Made by a program: the position numbers and the translations under genes
Virus record (IMG/VR): IMGVR_UViG_3300046012_000624
Location: 1-36,896 of that record
Strand: one strand, 5' to 3'
Length of the DNA stretch: 36,896 nt
From: a virus
The notes under the pieces: model-generated
The model's input: the letters and a program-made list of their open reading frames with translations, nothing else
Databases searched by the model: none
Told to the model about the DNA's origin: nothing
Shown: positions 4,813 to 15,482 of the stretch, in pieces
Layout of the letters: each line of letters opens with the position of its first letter
Numbering within the stretch: position 1 is the first letter of the stretch

Positions 4813-4982
4813 GCCGCACGCCGGATCCGGCGGGCAAGTGCGGCGGCCTCGATCTCCGCTTCGATCTGGGCAAGGGTCTCGCTGAATCGCGTAGCAACCT
4901 CGCGGCCCTTCGGCGAGTTCGGATCGAGGCTCTCGGCCTTGCCCGGGCCGGTCGGCGGCGGGTTGGTGACCGGCCCGGTCAC
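4809..4982 (-). CDS. 57-residue coupled early protein
   Basis: Reading from GTG 4982 (GTGA overlap with the stop of the HTH gene) gives 57 codons ending in TGA, which in turn overlaps the next ATG. The product starts MTGPVTNPPPTGPGKAESLD and ends with an amphipathic helix containing ETLAQIEAEIEAAALARRI. The perfect coupling on both sides and GC-rich third codon positions support a real gene. Its job is unknown. The heptad-like C-terminal half suggests coiled-coil pairing. Confidence 0.65.
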   Translation of the reverse strand: MTGPVTNPPPTGPGKAESLDPNSPKGREVATRFSETLAQIEAEIEAAALARRIRRAA

Positions 4983-5254
4983 GCCTTCTCGCCGATCTGG
5001 AAGAGATCCTCGAACTGCACGCCGACCCCGAGCTCCGACAGGGCGTCGGCGTGCTGGCCGAAAGTCGAAAGGACGGCGGCGATGAAGCGCTCGCCGATGA
5101 TGCCGTCTCGGGCTCGGCCGATGGTGAGCCTGTCCATACCGATGGCCCTGCCGATTGCTGCGTCGGAAGTCAGATCGAGCAGCTTGGTGACCAAGGCGAA
5201 GTGGTCGGTCTTTAGGAACACCCCCGCCCGCAGGTCAGGCTGTGTCACATCCAT
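4979..5254 (-). CDS. Cro-like HTH regulator heading the early operon
   Basis: This encodes 91 residues with a helix-turn-helix at about residues 30-51 (SDAAIGRAIGMDRLTIGRAR), followed by a small helical domain ending FEDLFQIGEKA. It is the first gene of the leftward operon, facing a repressor-like gene across the immunity region, the position of Cro in lambda-like switches. ATG 5254 is preferred because a leftward -10 (TAATGT) sits at 5279-5274; the TTG at 5311 and ATG at 5294 lie upstream of it and would not be in the transcript. It probably binds the ACACGCATGT repeats, which is inference. Confidence 0.75.
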   Translation of the reverse strand: MDVTQPDLRAGVFLKTDHFALVTKLLDLTSDAAIGRAIGMDRLTIGRARDGIIGERFIAAVLSTFGQHADALSELGVGVQFEDLFQIGEKA

Positions 5255-5273
5255 GTTGTAACTCACGTGTTGC

Positions 5274-5302
5274 ACATTAGCTGTCACACGCATGTTGCGC
5301 AA
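5274..5302 (-). promoter_or_regulatory. Leftward early promoter with operator in its spacer
   Basis: On the minus strand TTGCGC (5302-5297) and TAATGT (5279-5274) are separated by 17 bases. The predicted start near 5267 gives a leader of about 13 bases before ATG 5254. The repeat ACACGCATGT (5286-5295) lies inside the spacer, a position where a bound regulator would block polymerase. Confidence 0.6.
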
Positions 5303-5486
5303 CTGGGCCAAAAGTAGGAGTTGAGTGCAACACGCATGTCACGTACCCTACGGACATGAGCACCCGGCAAGACGTGCGCAAGATGAGGCGGATCAAGGGA
5401 AAACGCGCCCGAACGAATCGACCGACCCCCTACTTCAAGCTCGACCAGCGCCTAACACGCATGTCGCAGTGCAGTGACACGCATGT
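5286..5486. repeat. Four ACACGCATGT operator-like repeats
   Basis: Exact copies start at 5286, 5330, 5455 and 5477, all in the same orientation. Each is a near-dyad of the form ACA-N4-TGT. Three of the four fall between the -35 and -10 elements of the three promoters in this region. An inverted copy of the flank (CGTGTTGCAC at 5266-5275 versus GTGCAACACG at 5325-5334) adds outer symmetry. These are strong candidates for binding sites of the HTH proteins encoded on either side. Confidence 0.7.
5321..5349 (+). promoter_or_regulatory. Rightward leaderless promoter 1
   Basis: TTGAGT (5321-5326), a 17-base spacer containing an operator repeat, and TACCCT (5344-5349) stand 6 bases before ATG 5356. 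Transcription would start at or next to the A of that ATG, giving a leaderless message. The ATG is in frame with the repressor-like gene at 5503 and would add 49 basic residues to it. Confidence 0.55.
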
Positions 5487-5496
5487 CGCGTATAGT
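5468..5496 (+). promoter_or_regulatory. Rightward leaderless promoter 2
   Basis: TATAGT (5491-5496) lies exactly 6 bases before ATG 5503, with an operator repeat just upstream (5477-5486) and another at 5455. The -35 is poor. The 29 bases from the repeat to the ATG closely match those at promoter 1, so the two units look duplicated. Confidence 0.55.
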
Positions 5497-5502
5497 CCGG
5501 AC

Positions 5503-5949
5503 ATGCTTTTCGGACGAATTGATCGAGGCGCGTGGGCACGCGAGATCGACGCGCTCATCGACCGGCTCGACCACGGCAACAAGAGCGCGTTCGCGCGGCG
5601 GATCGGCCGCACCCGGCAGACCGTCATGCGGTGGCTCGCCCAGGAGACCGACACCAGCCTGGAATCAGTACGCCAGGTCCTGGACCAACTCCACCTTTCG
5701 CAGGAAGAGCAAGGCGAGCTGCTCACCAGGGTCGGCTACCTCGCCGTCGGCGGCCCAGCGCCGCCCGCATACCCCGACCCGCGCGACGACCCGGTAATCA
5801 AGCAGATCATGGCTGACCCGCAGCTCGACGAGGACCAGCGCGTCGAACTCGTCCAGGTCCAACTCGACCTGATCGAGGCCGACGTGAAGCGCCGCCAGGC
5901 CGAGTACGAACGTCTCATCGGCTACCGGGGCCAGCGGGACGCATCGTGA
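5503..5949 (+). CDS. HTH immunity repressor candidate
   Basis: This encodes 148 residues with a helix-turn-helix at about residues 27-44 (KSAFARRIGRTRQTVMRW), then a helical region and an acidic C-terminal part (EDQRVELVQVQLDLIEADVK) that could mediate dimer contacts. It lies directly upstream of the integrase, overlapping it as GTGA, so both are likely co-transcribed in the lysogen. ATG 5503 is preferred because TATAGT stands 6 bases upstream. ATG 5356, also behind a -10 element, would give a 197-residue form in the same frame. It is the likely phage repressor; direct evidence for operator binding is absent. Confidence 0.75.
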   Translation: MLFGRIDRGAWAREIDALIDRLDHGNKSAFARRIGRTRQTVMRWLAQETDTSLESVRQVLDQLHLSQEEQGELLTRVGYLAVGGPAPPAYPDPRDDPVIKQIMADPQLDEDQRVELVQVQLDLIEADVKRRQAEYERLIGYRGQRDAS

Positions 5950-7400
5950 CCCAGCGGCACCTCGCCGCTGTCCCCGAGCGGCCGCGGCGCGTCGCTCTCT
6001 ACGTCCGCGTGTCCGCCCTCATGGGCCGCGGCGGCGACGACTTCCACAGCCCAGACGTCCAGACGAACGCCATGCGCCGCCTCACCGCAGGCCTGCAAGA
6101 GGTCGAGGTCATCGAGGACATCGACCAGACCGGCCGCACCTTCTCCCGCGACGGCATCGACAAGATCCGCAGTCTCGCTGAGGCGCACGCCATCGACGTC
6201 GTCGCCGTGTACAACGTCTCCAGGCTCGGCCGCAACGTCCTCGAGTCGCTGAAGTTCCTGACCTGGCTCGCCGAGCGCGGCGTGACAATCCTGTCCGCCA
6301 CTGAGCACATCGACACCAGCACCCCCGCCGGCCGGTGGATGTTGACCAATATGCTCGCGATCGCCGAGATGCGCTCCGACGAGATCAGCGGCGAATGGGC
6401 CCGGACGATCCACCACCGCGCTGAGGCCGGCAAACCCCACGGCCGGCCGGGTACCGGATACGTGCGCGCGCCGGACGGGCGCTTCGCCGTCGACCCGGTG
6501 GCGGGCCCCGCGATCCGGACCGCGTTCATCGACTATGCCGCCGGCGTCGGCGGCCGCCAGATCCGCCTGTCGGTCCGGGCCGCCACCGGACTGGAGATCG
6601 CGCCGTCCACGCTGAAGCGGATCCTGCGCAACCGGGTGTACCTCGGCGTCGCCCGCGTGCGCGGTCAGCTCGGCCTGGTCGAGGTGCCGGGCGCCCATGA
6701 GCCGCTCGTGGACGAGGTCACCTGGCAGCGCGTTCAGGTGCGCATCGCGGCCGATCGGACCGTCGCGCCCGCGCTCAAGGCGGTGAAGTACCCGCTGTCG
6801 GGGCTGTGCCGCTGTGGGGTTTGCGGCCACGGTTGCGGCCACAAGAAGGCCCGTAACCGGGGCGGTCTTTCGCTGTCGTGCGCGAGGCAGTGGGTGGACC
6901 TGGAGAAGTGCACCGGCTGCGGTTACATCCCCGCTGCCGACGTCGAGGCGTACGTCCTGCGCCGCGTTGCCAGCTACGTCAGCGAGCTGCAGAGTGACAG
7001 CACCGTGCAGGCTGCCGTGGTGGCCCGTACGCGCCGCGCGGGGATCGACGCCAAGACGGTGAACGGTGAGCTGGCCGCTACCCGCAGGGCGATGTCCAGG
7101 GCGACTGAGCGGTGGGCCCGCGGTCAGCTCGACGACCGCACGTACGACGACACCATGACGGCGCTACAGCAGACGGAGACCGAGCTGGCCCTGACGCTGG
7201 GCTCGCTGCAGCAGGCGGCGGAACGTCCCTCGCCGAAGAAGGTGGCGATGCTCGGTCAGCGCCTGCTGCAGCTCTACCCGCAGATGAACGCGGAGCAGCG
7301 CAACCGGGCGCTGAAGGGCCTGATCGAGAAGATCGTCATCCGATCGGCAGCGCGCTATCGGGAGCCCGCGCATCTGCGCGTGGAGATCCGCTGGCTCTGA
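5946..7400 (+). CDS. int: Large serine integrase
   Basis: This is a 484-residue site-specific recombinase that would integrate the phage into the host chromosome. The resolvase domain starts at about residue 15, with the nucleophile in YVRVS (Ser23). It also has the SRLGRN motif near residue 95 and EMRSDEIS at the end of the domain. The recombinase domain follows (GRPGTGYV onward). A zinc ribbon with CRCGVCGHGC (from Cys288) and CTGC (322-325) precedes a coiled-coil (about 365-430). The order matches large serine integrases such as those of phiC31 and Bxb1. The start is GTG 5946, overlapping the repressor stop. The attP site is not identified. Confidence 0.95.
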   Translation: MTQRHLAAVPERPRRVALYVRVSALMGRGGDDFHSPDVQTNAMRRLTAGLQEVEVIEDIDQTGRTFSRDGIDKIRSLAEAHAIDVVAVYNVSRLGRNVLESLKFLTWLAERGVTILSATEHIDTSTPAGRWMLTNMLAIAEMRSDEISGEWARTIHHRAEAGKPHGRPGTGYVRAPDGRFAVDPVAGPAIRTAFIDYAAGVGGRQIRLSVRAATGLEIAPSTLKRILRNRVYLGVARVRGQLGLVEVPGAHEPLVDEVTWQRVQVRIAADRTVAPALKAVKYPLSGLCRCGVCGHGCGHKKARNRGGLSLSCARQWVDLEKCTGCGYIPAADVEAYVLRRVASYVSELQSDSTVQAAVVARTRRAGIDAKTVNGELAATRRAMSRATERWARGQLDDRTYDDTMTALQQTETELALTLGSLQQAAERPSPKKVAMLGQRLLQLYPQMNAEQRNRALKGLIEKIVIRSAARYREPAHLRVEIRWL

Positions 7401-8805: not shown

Positions 8806-8956
8806 TGCGGCCGCCTCCTTCGCTGCATCGAAGGGCGGAGGTCCGGGCCGGGCATGCAGTGCACCGACCCGGGCCTCCAGTGCAGCGGAGGTTACACCTG
8901 GAACTGTCATAGGGAAGGTTCTTGAGCAAGCTTCATACAGAAGCTGCACACGTACC

Positions 8957-8962
8957 TAGCGT
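8957..8962 (+). promoter_or_regulatory. -10 element for leaderless HTH gene
   Basis: TAGCGT stands 7 bases before ATG 8970, and no ribosome site precedes that ATG. CATACA at 8934-8939 could be a weak -35 with a 17-base spacer. An imperfect dyad around 8912-8932 (AAGGTTC/GCAAGCTTC) may be an operator. Confidence 0.4.
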
Positions 8963-8969
8963 GATCGCC

Positions 8970-9182
8970 ATGGGTGCGAAGGGGCGGCTCTACACAACTG
9001 GGGACATAGCCGACCGGCTCGGCATCACCCGCCAGTACGCGCTGACGCTCACCAAGGACCGGACGAAGCACTTCCCGGACAGCTTCGACGACATGCCCAA
9101 CGGCTCGGTCTGGCTCGTGCAGGACGTCGAGCGGTGGATCACCCAGAACCGGGGCGAACTGGCCGAGGATCCGGAGAGCTAG
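8970..9182 (+). CDS. Small excisionase-like HTH protein 2
   Basis: This encodes 70 residues from ATG 8970. The helix-turn-helix is TTGDIADRLGITRQYALTLT and the wing includes GSVWLVQDVERWITQNRGEL. This is the same architecture as the gene at 8025, with low identity. An ATG-side extension to 8922 exists but lies upstream of the -10, so 8970 is chosen. Its stop overlaps the opposing gene's stop in a CTAG. A DNA-binding role is likely; the target is unknown. It could control the plus-strand block that follows. Confidence 0.7.
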   Translation: MGAKGRLYTTGDIADRLGITRQYALTLTKDRTKHFPDSFDDMPNGSVWLVQDVERWITQNRGELAEDPES

Positions 9183-9457
9183 GCGTCGTCCTTGCGGCCG
9201 GCCTTCTGGAACACGACGCTGCGGCGCAGCTGGTAGATCTTCCGGTCAGCCACGGGCTTGCACCGCCAGCCCTGACCCTCGGCGCCCCACTCGCGAGTGC
9301 GGCGTTCCTCGTCGGCGAGTGACCGCTGGATCGTGCGCGCGGTGACTTCGAGCACCTCGGCCGCCTCGGCCACGCTCATCCAGTCCGCCACGTCGTACTC
9401 CTCGCCCCCAGGTGGTGGCAAGGATGTTTCCACGTCTTTCACGACCTCCAACGTCAT
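9179..9457 (-). CDS. HTH protein 3, DNA-binding
   Basis: This encodes 92 residues from ATG 9457. After a flexible N-terminus with PPPGGEEYDVADW comes SVAEAAEVLEVTARTIQRSL, a MerR/excisionase-type helix-turn-helix, then a basic region ending RRSVVFQKAGRKDDA. It is divergent from the transfer-like block, whose first gene starts 64 bp away, which suggests it regulates that block. GAGAAT lies 6 bases before its ATG, so this gene may also be leaderless. It converges on the HTH gene at 8970 with overlapping stops. Confidence 0.7.
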   Translation of the reverse strand: MTLEVVKDVETSLPPPGGEEYDVADWMSVAEAAEVLEVTARTIQRSLADEERRTREWGAEGQGWRCKPVADRKIYQLRRSVVFQKAGRKDDA

Positions 9458-9521: not shown

Positions 9522-9713
9522 ATGGGTCTCCCCGGAAACCTGACGCTGGCGGTCGGCGGCGCGCTCGTCGAGGGTGCCGTCTTCTGCCTCGTCATCCTCT
9601 CGGTCCGTTACGTCGTCAGGTCGGCTCGACCCAAGCCGCAGCAGCCGATCCGGATGACCGCCACGGTCGGCCGCGAGCTGCCCGCCCCGTCCCGGAAGGA
9701 GATCAGCCGATGA
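9522..9713 (+). CDS. Single-span membrane protein, first gene of transfer-like block
   Basis: This encodes 63 residues from ATG 9522. One hydrophobic segment covers about residues 6-30 (LAVGGALVEGAVFCLVILSV). A basic cytoplasmic tail follows (RYVVRSARPKPQQP). It overlaps the start of the DUF2637 gene as ATGA, so the two are coupled. In actinomycete plasmids, small membrane proteins of the Spd (spread) set precede the DNA translocase gene; the likeness here is of layout, not of a recognised family. Confidence 0.65.
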   Translation: MGLPGNLTLAVGGALVEGAVFCLVILSVRYVVRSARPKPQQPIRMTATVGRELPAPSRKEISR

Positions 9714-10495
9714 CCCGCAGGATCCGCTGGGCCGTGCGCGGGACGCTGTTCCTCGGCGTCGCCGCGTCCATCACCGCGAACGTGCTGCACGCCCGCGACA
9801 ACCCGATCAGCCAGGCCATCGCCGCGTGGCCACCCCTCGCGCTGCTGATCACCGTCGAGGTCGTGGCGCGGGTGCCGATCACCCGCCGCTGGTTCGCCGT
9901 CGTGCGCGTACTGGCCACCGCCCTGATCGCCGGGATCGCCGCATGGGTCAGCTACTGGCATATGGCGGGCGTCGCCCAGCGGTACGGCGAGCAGGGCAGC
10001 GCACCGTTCCTGCTGCCGCTGTCGGTGGACGGGCTGATCGTCGTCGCGTCGGTGTGCCTGGTCGAGCTGGGCGGACGCGACCGCGCCGCCGAGGAATCAA
10101 CACGAGGAGGAAGCAATGGCACTCAACTTGGGCAAGGTCGGCCGCAGGGTGAACGCGGCGATCACGTCAGCGGAGGCGAAGGAGTCGGCGGCGCTGGCGA
10201 AGCTGACGGGCAGCAAGGAGGACGCCCGGCAGGCGGAGATCCTGCGCCGGTCGGCGGAGGTGCTGCGCCGCCAGTAGCCGAGGTCAATTTGAGCCGACCG
10301 CGCAAGCCGCACACGACGAACCCGGACCGGGTGCGCCGGGCCTACGACCGGAACCCGGAAGCGGACCCGGCAGCGGTCGCCAAGCGGCTCAATTTGAGCC
10401 TGGCGACGGTGAAGAAGTACCGGCCGCCGAAGGAGCAGCCGGAGAAGGTCAACGGCAAGGTGCCAGAACTGGATCTGGAAGGAGCGAAGGCATGA
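9710..10495 (+). CDS. DUF2637/SpdB-like membrane protein with C-terminal HTH
   Basis: This encodes 261 residues. Four membrane helices fill residues 10-120 (TLFLGVAASITANVLHA, WPPLALLITVEVVARV, VLATALIAGIAAWVSYWHMA, LLPLSVDGLIVVASVCLVEL). A Gly-rich linker follows, then a helix-turn-helix near 215-245 (DPAAVAKRLNLSLATVKKYR). DUF2637 proteins of this build are linked to plasmid spread (SpdB) and AICE transfer in Streptomyces and Micromonospora relatives. They may pair with the TraB pore between hyphal cells. The linker reads like a shadow of another frame, because a 53-codon gene with its own ribosome site lies inside it (10116-10277). Confidence 0.8.
   Translation: MTRRIRWAVRGTLFLGVAASITANVLHARDNPISQAIAAWPPLALLITVEVVARVPITRRWFAVVRVLATALIAGIAAWVSYWHMAGVAQRYGEQGSAPFLLPLSVDGLIVVASVCLVELGGRDRAAEESTRGGSNGTQLGQGRPQGERGDHVSGGEGVGGAGEADGQQGGRPAGGDPAPVGGGAAPPVAEVNLSRPRKPHTTNPDRVRRAYDRNPEADPAAVAKRLNLSLATVKKYRPPKEQPEKVNGKVPELDLEGAKA
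10116..10277 (+). CDS. Nested 53-residue gene inside the DUF2637 gene
   Basis: A GAGGAGGAAG ribosome site at 10104-10113 precedes ATG 10116. The frame encodes MALNLGKVGRRVNAAITSAE and continues as an Ala/Lys/Glu-rich helix to TAG at 10277. This frame has the natural amino acid mix. The overlapping DUF2637 frame through the same bases yields an odd Gly-rich string. The nested gene is therefore probably real and may have been inserted or overprinted into the linker. The product looks like a small basic coiled helix; its role is unknown. Confidence 0.65.
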   Translation: MALNLGKVGRRVNAAITSAEAKESAALAKLTGSKEDARQAEILRRSAEVLRRQ

Positions 10496-10728
10496 CGAAG
10501 AACGTCACCGAGCAGGTCGCGCAGGAGAAGTTGCGCGCGTCGCTGGCCATGGGCGACACCCGGGCGAAGGCCGAGAAGTACGCCCAGCAGGTACGCGATT
10601 ACGACCGCGCCCAGGGCCGCGAAGGAGCGAAAACGACCGCGCCCAGGGCCGCGAAGGAGCGAAGTGATGGCGCAGCGAAAGCGTACGGAGGACTTTTACC
10701 CCGAGCATGTGGACGTCGATCAGCTTAA
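10492..10728 (+). CDS. Small helical protein with frame-shifted C-terminus
   Basis: This encodes 78 residues from ATG 10492, overlapping the DUF2637 stop as ATGA. The first 46 residues form a charged helix (EQVAQEKLRASLAMGDTRAK, then YAQQVRDYDRAQGREGAK). A 32-bp tandem duplication then shifts the frame. Without it the protein would end right after REGAK, with a TGA overlapping the next gene's start. The present tail (from about residue 47) is therefore new sequence. The helix could bind DNA or the membrane proteins beside it; function unknown. Confidence 0.65.
   Translation: MTKNVTEQVAQEKLRASLAMGDTRAKAEKYAQQVRDYDRAQGREGAKTTAPRAAKERSDGAAKAYGGLLPRACGRRSA
10601..10663 (+). repeat. Tandem duplication, period 32 bp
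   Basis: A 31-base unit at 10601-10631 is repeated exactly at 10633-10663. The period of 32 is not a multiple of three, so it changes the reading frame of the gene at 10492. It also duplicates an AAGGAG ribosome site. Exact identity suggests a recent event, or a sequencing or assembly artefact. Confidence 0.9.
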
Positions 10729-10879
10729 GGCGCGCCGGGAGCTGAAGAAGCTCGATGCCACTCGGATGCCCGCACAGGAGCGGAAGCGGCTGGGACCTGC
10801 GCTTACGGAGGCCCGCGACCGTGCTGTCGGTGATTCCCCGATGCACAGGCTGCCGCGAGACAACTGGCGGAACAACTAG
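10667..10879 (+). CDS. Small basic protein before translocase
   Basis: This encodes 70 residues from ATG 10667 with AAGGAG 8 bases upstream. GTG 10664 is an alternative. The product is strongly charged: RTEDFYPEHVDVDQLKARRE, then MPAQERKRLGPALTEARDRA, ending RLPRDNWRNN. It is predicted to be helical and cytoplasmic. It lies inside the 464-bp repeat-bounded unit and 72 bp before the translocase gene. No family is recognised. Small charged proteins are common between spd and tra genes. Confidence 0.65.
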   Translation: MAQRKRTEDFYPEHVDVDQLKARRELKKLDATRMPAQERKRLGPALTEARDRAVGDSPMHRLPRDNWRNN

Positions 10880-10951
10880 ACGCCCGCCCGCCGAAGAAGT
10901 AGCCGGAGAAGGTCAACGGCAAGGTGCCAGAACTGGAAGGAGTGAGCACCG

Positions 10952-12562
10952 GTGGCTGACCTGTTCCGGGTATGGCTGCCCGTGTCGTCGGCGGTCGCCG
11001 CGGTAGCCGCCGACGAGGGGCACAAGGCGGGCGTGGCTGCGGCGGCCGTGGCGCTGTGGCGCGGCCGCCAGTACCTGCACGAGCGCCGCTTCCGCCGCGA
11101 GTACATCGAGCCGACGCTGGCCGCGATGTCCCCAGCGCTCGGCCTGCAAGAGTCCCAGGTCCGGCTGCGCGTCGACACGTCCCTGGGCAACCTCACCCCG
11201 AGGCTGGCCAAACCGCTGTCGCCCGCCGAGAAGTGGATCCGGCTGCGGTACGGCGCCCACGTCGAGCCCGTGCTGCGGTGGCTGCCCGAGCGGGCGCAGC
11301 GCGGCGTGTGGGCGGTCCAGCGCAAGGCCCGGCCGGTCACCGGCAAGGTCGTGCTGCTGCGCCGGCCACGGGAGGACGCCGGCCCGCGGATCGAGCTGGT
11401 CGCGCAGACGCCTTACCTGACCGCGGAGCAGCGTCAGCTCGTCTCGTCGATCGTCAAGGCGAAAATTCCAGCAGGAGATCTCGTGGAAGCGTGGCACCAG
11501 GTCGGCGTGCGGGTGCGGGCCGTGTGGACGGTGCGCAAGCGGCCGCCGTCGGCGGTGGGCCTCGAGCACGTCCTGGCGCAGCTGCCGAAGCTGAAGGAGT
11601 GGGAGTTCTACGTCGGGCAGGCGGCCGGGGATCTGCCGGTGGTCATCTCGCTGCGGGACGACTCGCCGCACATCGCCGTGTCGGCCGGGTCGGGCGCCGG
11701 GAAGAGCGTGCTGGCGCAGCTGCTGGCCGTGCAGACCCGGCACCGGGGTGGCCGGGTGGTGATCCTGGACCGCAAGGGCTCGCACCGGTGGGCGATCGGG
11801 CAGCCGGGCATCGACTACTGCACGCGGCCGGTCCAGATGCACGAGGCGCTGCTGCGGACGGCGGCGCTGGCCGACGAGCGCAACGACCTGGCGCTGCACG
11901 AGGAGGAGGACTGGGACCCGGGCGACCGCGTGCTGGTGATCTGCGAGGAGCTGAACGCGACGATCGGGCAGCTCGCGAACTACTGGGCCGACGTCCGGGA
12001 GAAAGGCGAGCCGAAGAAGTCGCCCGCAATTGCGGCGCTGGCCGATCTGCTATTCATGGGCCGCTCGGCGAAGGTCAACGTATTAGCCATTGCGCAGATG
12101 CTCACGGCGCGGGCAATCGGCGGGCCGGAGGCGCGGGAGAATTTCGGTATTCGGTGCCTGGCTCGCTATACGGCGAACAACTGGAAAATGCTCGTGCCTG
12201 AGGCTGCGATGCCACGGGCATCACGCACGCTGGGCCGCTGGCAGGTCGTCATCGGAGGGCAGGCCATAGAGGTACAAGTCGCCTACCTCACCACAAAGCA
12301 GGCACGTGCCCTCGCGAATCCGGGCGACGGGCTTGTAGGCGCGCTGAGCAGCGATGTCCCCGGGGTCAGGGACATGATGACGCTGCGGGACGCCATCGAG
12401 GACGGCGTGATCCCCTGGTCGTACGAGGCGGCGAAGAAGCGGCTGCAGCGCAAGGTCGGGAACGCGCCGAAGCCTCGCGGCAAGAATGGGAACGCCGACC
12501 TATTCCAGCGCGAGGATCTTGCCCGCTGGGTCGAGAGCACGGAATCGGAGTCGGTGCCATGA
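10952..12562 (+). CDS. FtsK/TraB-like DNA translocase
   Basis: This is a 536-residue FtsK/SpoIIIE-type ATPase. An N-terminal hydrophobic stretch (SSAVAAVAADEGHKAGVAAA) is followed by a basic linker. The motor has Walker A GSGAGKS (residues 246-252), Walker B VLVICEE (327-333) and a sensor-like IAQMLTA segment. A basic C-terminal tail with a helix (FQREDLARWVES) could bind DNA. TraB proteins of Streptomyces plasmids and AICEs move double-stranded DNA between hyphae as a single-protein motor, and the neighbouring DUF2637 gene supports that class. Start GTG 10952 follows AAGGAG. It contains one rare TTA leucine codon (12083-12085), which in Streptomyces depends on bldA. Confidence 0.88.
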   Translation: MADLFRVWLPVSSAVAAVAADEGHKAGVAAAAVALWRGRQYLHERRFRREYIEPTLAAMSPALGLQESQVRLRVDTSLGNLTPRLAKPLSPAEKWIRLRYGAHVEPVLRWLPERAQRGVWAVQRKARPVTGKVVLLRRPREDAGPRIELVAQTPYLTAEQRQLVSSIVKAKIPAGDLVEAWHQVGVRVRAVWTVRKRPPSAVGLEHVLAQLPKLKEWEFYVGQAAGDLPVVISLRDDSPHIAVSAGSGAGKSVLAQLLAVQTRHRGGRVVILDRKGSHRWAIGQPGIDYCTRPVQMHEALLRTAALADERNDLALHEEEDWDPGDRVLVICEELNATIGQLANYWADVREKGEPKKSPAIAALADLLFMGRSAKVNVLAIAQMLTARAIGGPEARENFGIRCLARYTANNWKMLVPEAAMPRASRTLGRWQVVIGGQAIEVQVAYLTTKQARALANPGDGLVGALSSDVPGVRDMMTLRDAIEDGVIPWSYEAAKKRLQRKVGNAPKPRGKNGNADLFQREDLARWVESTESESVP

Positions 12563-12795
12563 CAACGGCATTCGTGCTCGGCTTCATCGTCGGCGGGTTC
12601 GTGGCGTGGAATACGTCGGTGGCCATCGAGCGATTCCGCCGGGCCCGCTGGGATTTCCATGCCACCCGGCGCGGCCTGCGCTCGCTGATCGAGATGATGT
12701 GGGCACGCGGCGTCCAGGCGGTGAAGGGCTGCCTGCTCGCCGCCGGAGTCATCGCTGCGGTGGTCCTGGTCTGGCACGGCCAGCACTTCCGGTGA
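12559..12795 (+). CDS. Small membrane protein after translocase
   Basis: This encodes 78 residues from ATG 12559, overlapping the translocase stop as ATGA. Two hydrophobic segments are seen: TAFVLGFIVGGFVAWNTSVA (residues 3-22) and LLAAGVIAAVVLVW near 58-72. A basic loop with RFRRARWDFHATRRG lies between them. Coupling to the motor gene suggests a membrane partner of the translocase. It ends the plus-strand block and is followed by a strong terminator. Confidence 0.7.
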   Translation: MTTAFVLGFIVGGFVAWNTSVAIERFRRARWDFHATRRGLRSLIEMMWARGVQAVKGCLLAAGVIAAVVLVWHGQHFR

Positions 12796-12810
12796 GTCCC
12801 GGACACGCAA

Positions 12811-12843
12811 AAGCGCCCCGCCTCCGAAGAGGCGGGGCGTTGT
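12811..12843. terminator. Strong bidirectional terminator
   Basis: An 11-bp perfect stem (12814-12824 with 12829-12839) has a CGAA loop. On the plus strand it is followed by TTGTTGT. On the minus strand it is followed by a TTTT run. It separates the transfer-like block from the convergent lysis genes. Confidence 0.85.
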
Positions 12844-12871
12844 TGTCGGTGGGTGCGAGTAGGGTGCGGCG

Positions 12872-14666: not shown

Positions 14667-15482
14667 ATGAATCGAAGGATCATCGCTATGGCCGCCGTGG
14701 CGGCGCTCGGCACCGCAGGCCTGGCCGCCGCCGCTCCGCCCGCAGCGGCCGCCGCGTGCGTGACGCCCGGACCGGTCGCCCACCGCGGTGGAACCGAGCG
14801 GTACGTCGAGAACACCCGCAACGCGTTCCGTCAGGCCACTCGATCCGGCGTCGGCTTCTGGGAGACCGATGTGCGGTTCACCAGCGACGACGTGCCCGTG
14901 ATCATGCACGACGCGACGGTAGACCGAACTACGAACGGCACCGGGGCGGTGGCCGGCATGACGTACGCGCAGATCGCCGCGTTGCGCACCGCCGACGATC
15001 AGCCGGTCCCGACCCTCGCCGAGATCATGAACGACCAGAGCGTCGACCGGGCGTACGCGTTCGTCGAGCCGAAGGTCATGCCCACCGAGGCACAGTGGGC
15101 GACGTTCATCACCGCGCTGACCAGCCGCGTACCCGCTGGCACCCCGCGCCCGGCGATCGAGTCGTTCGACCCGGCCGTCCTCGATCAGGTGGCGATCCGG
15201 CTGCCCGGCTACACCCGCGCGCTGGACCAGTCCGTGGGCGACGCAGACCCGGCAGACATCACCCCGCACGCGAGCATCCTGCTCAAGCACCACGACGCGA
15301 TCACCTCGGCCCGGCTGACCAAGTGGATCGGCGCCGGTCTGCGGGTCTACGCGTGGGCCGATCCGAGCGCCGGGGACGCGCCCTCTGAATGGGCTCGGAT
15401 CGCCGGATACGGCGGCGTCTCCGGGTTCATCACCAACTCGCCCGGGGCGTACGTCGCCTGGCGCAACGCCAGGGTCTGCTAG
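14667..15482 (+). CDS. Secreted glycerophosphodiester phosphodiesterase
   Basis: This is a 271-residue GDPD-family enzyme. Residues 1-30 form a signal peptide with a basic start, a hydrophobic core and an Ala-rich cleavage region (AAAPPAAAAAC). Catalytic residues appear as HRGG (His39), EN (48-49), ETD (Glu66, Asp68) and MHD (His81). GDPDs hydrolyse glycerophosphodiesters to glycerol-3-phosphate and an alcohol; some act on teichoic acids. Export and its own plus-strand promoter suggest a lysogen-expressed gene that alters the wall or scavenges phosphate, or superinfection exclusion. It could also aid late wall breakdown beside the endolysin. Its stop overlaps the fibre gene's stop in CTAG. 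Confidence 0.85.
   Translation: MNRRIIAMAAVAALGTAGLAAAAPPAAAAACVTPGPVAHRGGTERYVENTRNAFRQATRSGVGFWETDVRFTSDDVPVIMHDATVDRTTNGTGAVAGMTYAQIAALRTADDQPVPTLAEIMNDQSVDRAYAFVEPKVMPTEAQWATFITALTSRVPAGTPRPAIESFDPAVLDQVAIRLPGYTRALDQSVGDADPADITPHASILLKHHDAITSARLTKWIGAGLRVYAWADPSAGDAPSEWARIAGYGGVSGFITNSPGAYVAWRNARVC

Follow-up and report, generated by a model that had tools for sequence, protein, structure and literature searches.

Actinomycete integrative and conjugative elements (AICEs) such as pSAM2, SLP1 and pACPL carry an integrase, a single motor of the FtsK superfamily and a membrane protein of the Spd type, and they live in mycelial hosts. TraB and the Tra protein of plasmid pIJ101 likewise combine an FtsK-superfamily P-loop motor, ending in a helix-turn-helix (HTH), with Spd proteins as DNA-binding integral membrane partners. 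TcpA is the conjugation translocase of the clostridial plasmid pCW3. A recent review points out its resemblance to FtsK and the possibility that it moves double-stranded DNA (PMC12857230). SpdB2 is a DNA-binding, oligomeric membrane protein that interacts with TraB (PMC4170104). Transfer genes in a phage have precedents among conjugating Streptomyces plasmid-phages, namely pZL12 and pFP4, which are reported to carry such genes, to form virions and to conjugate as episomes (PMC4170104, PMC3583192). Here we analyzed the IMG/VR virus record IMGVR_UViG_3300046012_000624, a stretch of 36,896 bases with a G+C content of 69%, the whole of which we call the window. Between its immunity and lysis genes, a plus-strand block at positions 9522-12795 encodes a DUF2637 membrane protein and a putative DNA-translocase motor. 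A first-pass annotation had described this block as a conjugation-like transfer module inside a siphophage genome. From the sequence comparisons, we interpret the block as an accessory cassette for DNA transfer that passes between phages and the plasmids or integrative elements of mycelial actinobacteria.

By its sequence, the window is a temperate siphophage. It encodes a portal (PF04860), a protease (PF04586), an HK97 capsid protein (PF05065) and a tape measure protein (PF10145), all above Pfam cut-offs, together with a large serine integrase (5946..7400, plus strand; PF00239, PF07508, PF13408). The head and tail genes and the location of the block agree with the first-pass annotation. It is probably a soil phage whose hosts are thread-forming bacteria. 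No match to ParA/ParB or Rep was found above cut-off among the window proteins scanned, some small open reading frames (ORFs) being left unscanned, and neither RepSA nor Prim-Pol was seen among the scanned proteins. This agrees with the earlier remark that no replication initiator lies near the block. We considered whether the window is an AICE and rejected this: it has an integrase and a motor, but it also has virion genes and no Rep match in the scanned proteins, and its motor falls outside PF01580. A plasmid-phage of the pZL12 type was rejected as well, in view of the integrase and the lack of ParA/ParB/Rep matches in the proteins scanned. The record of pZL12 is circular, spans 90 kb and contains ParAB and an FtsK-type gene unrelated to the window motor, whereas the window phage is a siphophage that integrates, with a genome of about 37 kb or more.

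The motor (10952..12562, plus strand) is a protein of 536 aa. Its Walker A motif, AGSGAGKS, is at residues 245-252 and its Walker B motif, VLVICEE, at residues 327-333, both where they had been placed by the first-pass annotation. The motor matches DUF87 (PF01935, the HerA central domain) with an E value of 2.5e-7 and shows no match to PF01580 (FtsK_SpoIIIE) even at E<=1, whereas pIJ101 Tra matches PF01580 with an E value of 9e-10. HHalign detected full-length homology with pRL2-11 of the linear plasmid pRL2 (100%, 4.2e-56, 408 columns), including the pRL2-11-type block SPH..SAG.G.GKS ... GGPE.REN..R.LARYT. The same method gave a probability of 27.7% for pIJ101 Tra, in the motor region only, and 0.9% for the FtsK-like gene of pZL12, indicating no relation. 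An AlphaFold2 model built on 26 relatives has a pLDDT of 72, with core blocks mostly at 80-93. In a Foldseek search with this model, TcpA of pCW3 (Clostridium perfringens) ranked first (3e-13) and the FtsK motor next (8e-10). TcpA is thus the best fold match in the PDB, and it is also the best sequence match, which is not significant (E 0.07); the two proteins share about 15% identity, and TcpA works with a conjugation apparatus, whereas none was seen in the window. The predicted parts of the motor are N-terminal helices, a P-loop domain of the FtsK/HerA type and an HTH-like domain at the C-terminus, the last recognized by reading the sequence. Sequence and model together place the motor in the pRL2-11/DUF87 branch of the FtsK-HerA superfamily, with a predicted fold closest to TcpA. 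It had been called FtsK/TraB-like; the model bears out an FtsK-type P-loop fold, and membership of the TraB/PF01580 family, which we tried as a candidate assignment, is not supported, the match being to DUF87.

The partner gene (9710..10495, plus strand) matches DUF2637 (PF10935, E 2.3e-13). Its AlphaFold2 model contains four membrane helices (residues 2-27, 32-54, 60-91 and 98-137), a disordered linker, and a C-terminal three-helix HTH at residues 205-236 (pLDDT 86-91) that the first-pass annotation had not listed. That annotation had described a four-span protein similar to DUF2637 and SpdB. The DUF2637 assignment and the four predicted helices hold, and the relation to SpdB does not, with an HHalign value of 0.5% against pIJ101 SpdB and no DUF2637 match in pIJ101 SpdB. 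Because pIJ101 SpdB is not detectably related, "SpdB-like" is only an analogy between integral membrane proteins that have a DNA-binding part. Foldseek with the DUF2637 model returned no significant match, tblastn found no DUF2637 in isolated phages, and our literature search found no functional study of DUF2637.

Two small proteins with predicted transmembrane (TM) segments stand at the ends of the block, as had been noted. The first (9522..9713, plus strand, 63 aa; TM 10-28 by hydropathy) has homologs at the equivalent place in three sister phages, with 60-63% identity. The last (12559..12795, plus strand, 78 aa; TM 5-23 and 54-72) overlaps the motor stop and is the third conserved component, with 80-86% identity in three sister phages (L003-L005) and 49% in another (L007). 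Counting the ORFs in place, the block has the five to six plus-strand genes first described.

Seven other viral contigs in IMG/VR carry the motor. In the nearest of them, HTH genes are followed by a small TM protein, DUF2637 or another multi-TM protein, the motor and the 2-TM protein, and then by lysis genes and tail genes on the other strand; the conserved synteny that the first-pass annotation had suggested looking for in related prophages is present in these phages, with the same order at the same place. The integrase type varies among these phages, serine in the window and, judged by eye, tyrosine-type in L003 and L005. The ratio of nonsynonymous to synonymous substitution rates (dN/dS) of the motor is 0.13-0.24 across the sister phages, and 0.22-0.24 when the window motor is set against those of its sisters, and its frames are open. 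The motor is intact and under purifying selection. With the motor 70-84% identical in other viral contigs that keep the synteny, these sequence comparisons indicate that the block is more than a chance arrangement.

Outside recognized viruses, a pattern scan of bacterial genomes for close relatives of the motor gave 18 loci, all in Micromonosporaceae, a mycelial family, and a broader search of 355 Micromonosporaceae genomes located the motor at 26 loci in 22 of them. At least eight loci (G005, G007, G009, G011, G012, G013, G052 and G280) are prophage-like, as judged by a tape measure, capsid, lysin or tail gene in the neighborhood. Two loci (G096 and G098) are AICE-like and use the motor family of the window; they contain GntR, the motor, Prim-Pol at most 2 kb from the motor stop, HTH/Xis and a tyrosine integrase. 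At least five loci lie in elements of ~10 kb with a serine recombinase and without a phage match, and many of the Micromonosporaceae carriers are not recognizable as phages. No RepSA was found near the motor in the 22 genomes. The gene upstream of the motor at most Micromonosporaceae loci encodes DUF2637 or another multi-TM protein. Where the DUF2637 profile does not match, a multi-TM protein is still the usual product of the upstream gene, and several of these proteins have an N-terminal HTH-like stretch; at one locus (L023) hydropathy gives no multi-TM prediction for it.

The motor also matches 79 plasmid records. On the linear plasmids pRL2, pFRL6 and pPR2 of Streptomyces and Planobispora, DUF2637 adjoins the motor, which is recorded as a Tra protein on pFRL6. 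These plasmids have the same order as the window, membrane partner and then motor, and the motor homology is full-length; they differ in their linear plasmid setting (with a DUF927 gene on pRL2 and pPR2), and identity is about 38-42% over the motor domain. The annotation tables of pPR2 (15.5-kb) and pRL2 (20-kb) show no further transfer gene. The earlier view of the block as a module of the DNA-transfer type is supported by the sharing of the pair with these plasmids and of the motor with AICE-like loci. Among isolated phages, only Streptomyces phage Dagobah has a relative of the motor (gp87, 34% identity over 48%), limited to a short motor domain, with no adjoining DUF2637 detected.

In a tree of 42 motors, the label "phage" requires six changes, five of them forced by well-supported branches. 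A prophage motor (L025) is sister to the clade of serine-integrase elements, and the AICE pair branches outside most phage motors. Several plasmid sequences, Dagobah and L008 are on long branches, so the deep order is unsure. Phage motors are interleaved with element motors, and therefore the gene appears to move between phages and elements; the phage-specific packaging or segregation clade that would speak against a transfer module was not recovered.

Two carriers of the motor may be singled out. On a Streptomyces uncialis plasmid (L105), the genes near a pRL2-11-type motor include a MobF relaxase and a member of the replication-relaxation family, so the motor may act together with a relaxase on some plasmids. 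In Micromonospora parastrephiae (L019, 12280-17614), the motor lies in a short element whose other genes include a tyrosine integrase, a primase/AAA_25 gene and an HK97 capsid gene (PF05065, 3e-42), the last being the only virion gene recognized nearby. This gene content suggests a phage satellite or mini-element that has a capsid gene and also carries the transfer module.

The immunity-lysis junction differs among related phages. Two of them were found by a lysin search: L156 has no cassette at this junction, and L157 holds DUF2637 with a different FtsK-type motor of about 690 aa. Examination of the DNA at 49 viral DUF2637 loci showed the window motor family at six, a second FtsK-type motor of about 690-760 aa at 14 (L107, L110, L111, L113, L114, L117, L120 and seven more), and another or no motor at the rest. 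In L110/L157, the second motor and DUF2637 occupy the equivalent junction of a related phage. Judged by these sequences, the cassette is accessory and optional for the phage, which argues against a packaging function and for a function in the lysogen or in transfer. Separately, a viral-classed contig (L122, 3595-5561) has regular repeats, translated as VAGTTPPRGHFD, beside its DUF2637 gene, suggesting a CRISPR-like array.

The 3' part of the DUF2637 gene contains two candidate cis sites. Site 1, GGTCAATTTGAGCC (10282..10295), includes the 9-mer TCAAWTTGA, and site 2 (10386..10400), 105 bp away, is a perfect palindrome, GGCTCAATTTGAGCC, with a second TCAAWTTGA. These are the only two copies in 36.9 kb, while 0.01 are expected per shuffled window, and none of 300 shuffles held such an AT-rich palindromic pair. 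A sister phage (L005) has a palindrome pair 116 bp apart, its second site carrying one mismatch. The codon phase of site 1 differs between the two phages (VNLSR versus AQIEP) and the palindrome is kept, so the DNA itself appears conserved. Palindromes called sps lie inside spdA2 of pIJ101 and relatives, where they are bound by SpdA2 and required for plasmid stability (PMC4170104). The window pair is likewise placed inside the gene of a putative DNA-binding protein, and its sequence differs from that of sps (CGTCACGTGACG). The tandem TraB recognition sequences (TRS) or clt repeats of 8 bp that the first-pass annotation had suggested looking for were not found; the AT-rich palindrome pair was found instead. 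Only GAAGGAGC, which resembles a ribosome-binding site, reaches four copies near the module, with no tandem array. In another sister phage (L004, 6840-6879), the palindrome GGTGTCATGACACC occurs twice at a spacing of 26 bp, immediately before the small TM gene, an operator-like arrangement.

Sequence, models and analogy together lean towards a membrane translocase for double-stranded DNA that would move excised phage DNA across hyphal membranes, which is DNA transfer in a broad sense. The serine integrase would excise the prophage as a circle. The motor would assemble into a hexameric ring at the cytoplasmic membrane, where its N-terminal helices, DUF2637 and probably the two small membrane proteins would hold it. 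The HTH domains of partner and motor may recognize a site in the phage DNA, for which the GGCTCAAWTTGAGCC palindrome pair in the partner gene is a candidate. By analogy with TraB/Spd, the motor would then use ATP hydrolysis to pump double-stranded phage DNA through the membrane into an adjacent compartment of the hypha or into a hypha in contact with it, and the integrase would re-establish the phage there. In this way a prophage could spread or re-seed through the mycelium without lysis, keeping virions for long-range spread. A more specific proposal, which we put forward only tentatively, is that these integrating temperate siphophages spread in two working ways: as virions, and by a conjugation-like process in which a translocase of the TcpA/pRL2-11 type, swapped in from plasmids and AICEs, pumps the excised double-stranded genome between hyphae of different origin. 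The immunity-lysis junction would be a standing slot for such cassettes, with at least two motors in use.

Several observations weigh against translocation of excised phage DNA. We found no transfer assay for any member of the motor family in the literature searched. The scanned window proteins include no replication initiator, and AICEs amplify before transfer. No tandem TraB-type repeats of 7-9 bp were found near the module beyond those in shuffled sequences, and the palindrome motif is lacking at other loci, the pair being seen in two phages only. No N-terminal membrane anchor is confidently predicted for the motor, and the confidence of its model (pLDDT 72) is middling. Some phages (L109, L115 and L118) carry DUF2637 without a motor before the lysis genes, so DUF2637 may act independently of a motor of the window type. 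Some large plasmids carry the motor near a MobF relaxase gene, which makes single-strand transfer possible there.

The alternative that survives best is a role confined to one mycelium, in which the motor would carry prophage or replicating phage DNA across the host's own cross-walls or into spores as a stability function, not between strains. We regard this as possible but not probable. SLP2 Spd1 and pIJ101 SpdA2/sps serve spread or stability (PMC13245405, PMC4170104), the palindrome pair in a DNA-binding-protein gene mirrors sps, and the motor fold is of the FtsK type. However, an integrated prophage needs no segregation aid, and the motor is the sole visible candidate for horizontal movement both in small elements with a serine integrase and on small linear plasmids.

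Superinfection exclusion or another form of defense, in which a prophage-expressed membrane ATPase and its DNA-binding membrane partner would block or eject incoming phage DNA, appears unlikely. Genes expressed in lysogens are often found between immunity and lysis genes, and this is where the cassette sits. HerA-type ATPases occur in defense systems (Foldseek rank 33), and PADLOC gave a weak match to mad8 (6e-8). This match spans the P-loop only, however, and no nuclease or effector domain was found in the block. The recurrence of the pair on plasmids and of the motor in AICE-like loci also disfavors defense. Even less likely is a functionless, hitch-hiking remnant of AICE-phage recombination. 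The patchy presence and variable small ORFs would suit a remnant, but the open frames, the low dN/dS across sister phages and the conserved order of three to four genes do not. Least likely of all, an accessory role in packaging or genome entry, with the motor drawing in the infecting genome or helping to package it, would explain a P-loop similarity to a terminase PHROG (E 0.003) in a gene that lies in a phage, but we reject it because the cassette is dispensable, as in L156 and with the different motor of L157, and not phage-specific, many Micromonosporaceae carriers being no recognizable phages and the phage motors forming no clade of their own; the window phage also has a terminase-like gene besides its own portal and capsid.

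Other features lie within and around the cassette. Two small soluble ORFs, both optional, separate partner and motor on the plus strand. The first (10492..10728) has a weak relative in L007 (53% identity, 58% of length) and is not found between partner and motor in L003-L005; the second (10667..10879) has no family match. They are bracketed by a 54-bp direct repeat (94%) at 10420-10473 and 10884-10937. Since the core of this repeat occurs once in L003-L005, ending the partner gene, the two ORFs look like an insertion by duplication. A possible nested gene of 53 aa (10116..10277, plus strand) lies in another frame of the DUF2637 linker, with a strong ribosome-binding site and the start region AGGAGGAAGCAATG. 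It is known from reading the sequence, and family searches gave no significant match. In L005, another frame inside the partner gene likewise ends in a TAG stop just before the palindrome.

HTH genes and a strong terminator had been given as the bounds of the block; the terminator is present, and the HTH genes are on the left side only. They encode an excisionase/MerR-type protein (8922..9182, plus strand; HTH_17 E 0.0095, phrog_66 E 0.002) and a protein divergent from the cassette (9179..9457, minus strand; HTH_17 E 0.001). By fold energy, the predicted terminator is a bidirectional hairpin between the cassette and the lysis genes (about 12808..12845; -34.0 kcal/mol on the plus strand, z -4.4, and -29.7 on the minus strand, z -4.8). 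Adjoining the lysis genes on the opposite strand is a secreted-looking glycerophosphodiester phosphodiesterase (14667-15482; PF03009), and pZL12 has a gene with this annotation near its tail genes. Farther left, at 5286-5350, two divergent genes (4979-5311 and 5356-5949) are accompanied by four copies of ACACGCATG, perhaps an immunity operator.

Set beside the plasmid-phages on record, what is new by sequence comparison is the group of integrating siphophages, whose motor family is distinct from TraB/PF01580 and has no relation to the pZL12 motor, the sharing of this motor with AICE-like elements of Micromonosporaceae, and the cassette slot at the immunity-lysis junction. If the proposed translocation is true, some integrating phages of filamentous actinobacteria would spread without lysis, and the border between a prophage and a conjugative element would come down to a single exchangeable cassette. 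Such translocation would also assign a role to a large family that has no name, the DUF2637 proteins and DUF87 motors found on the linear plasmids of antibiotic producers and in AICE-like elements.

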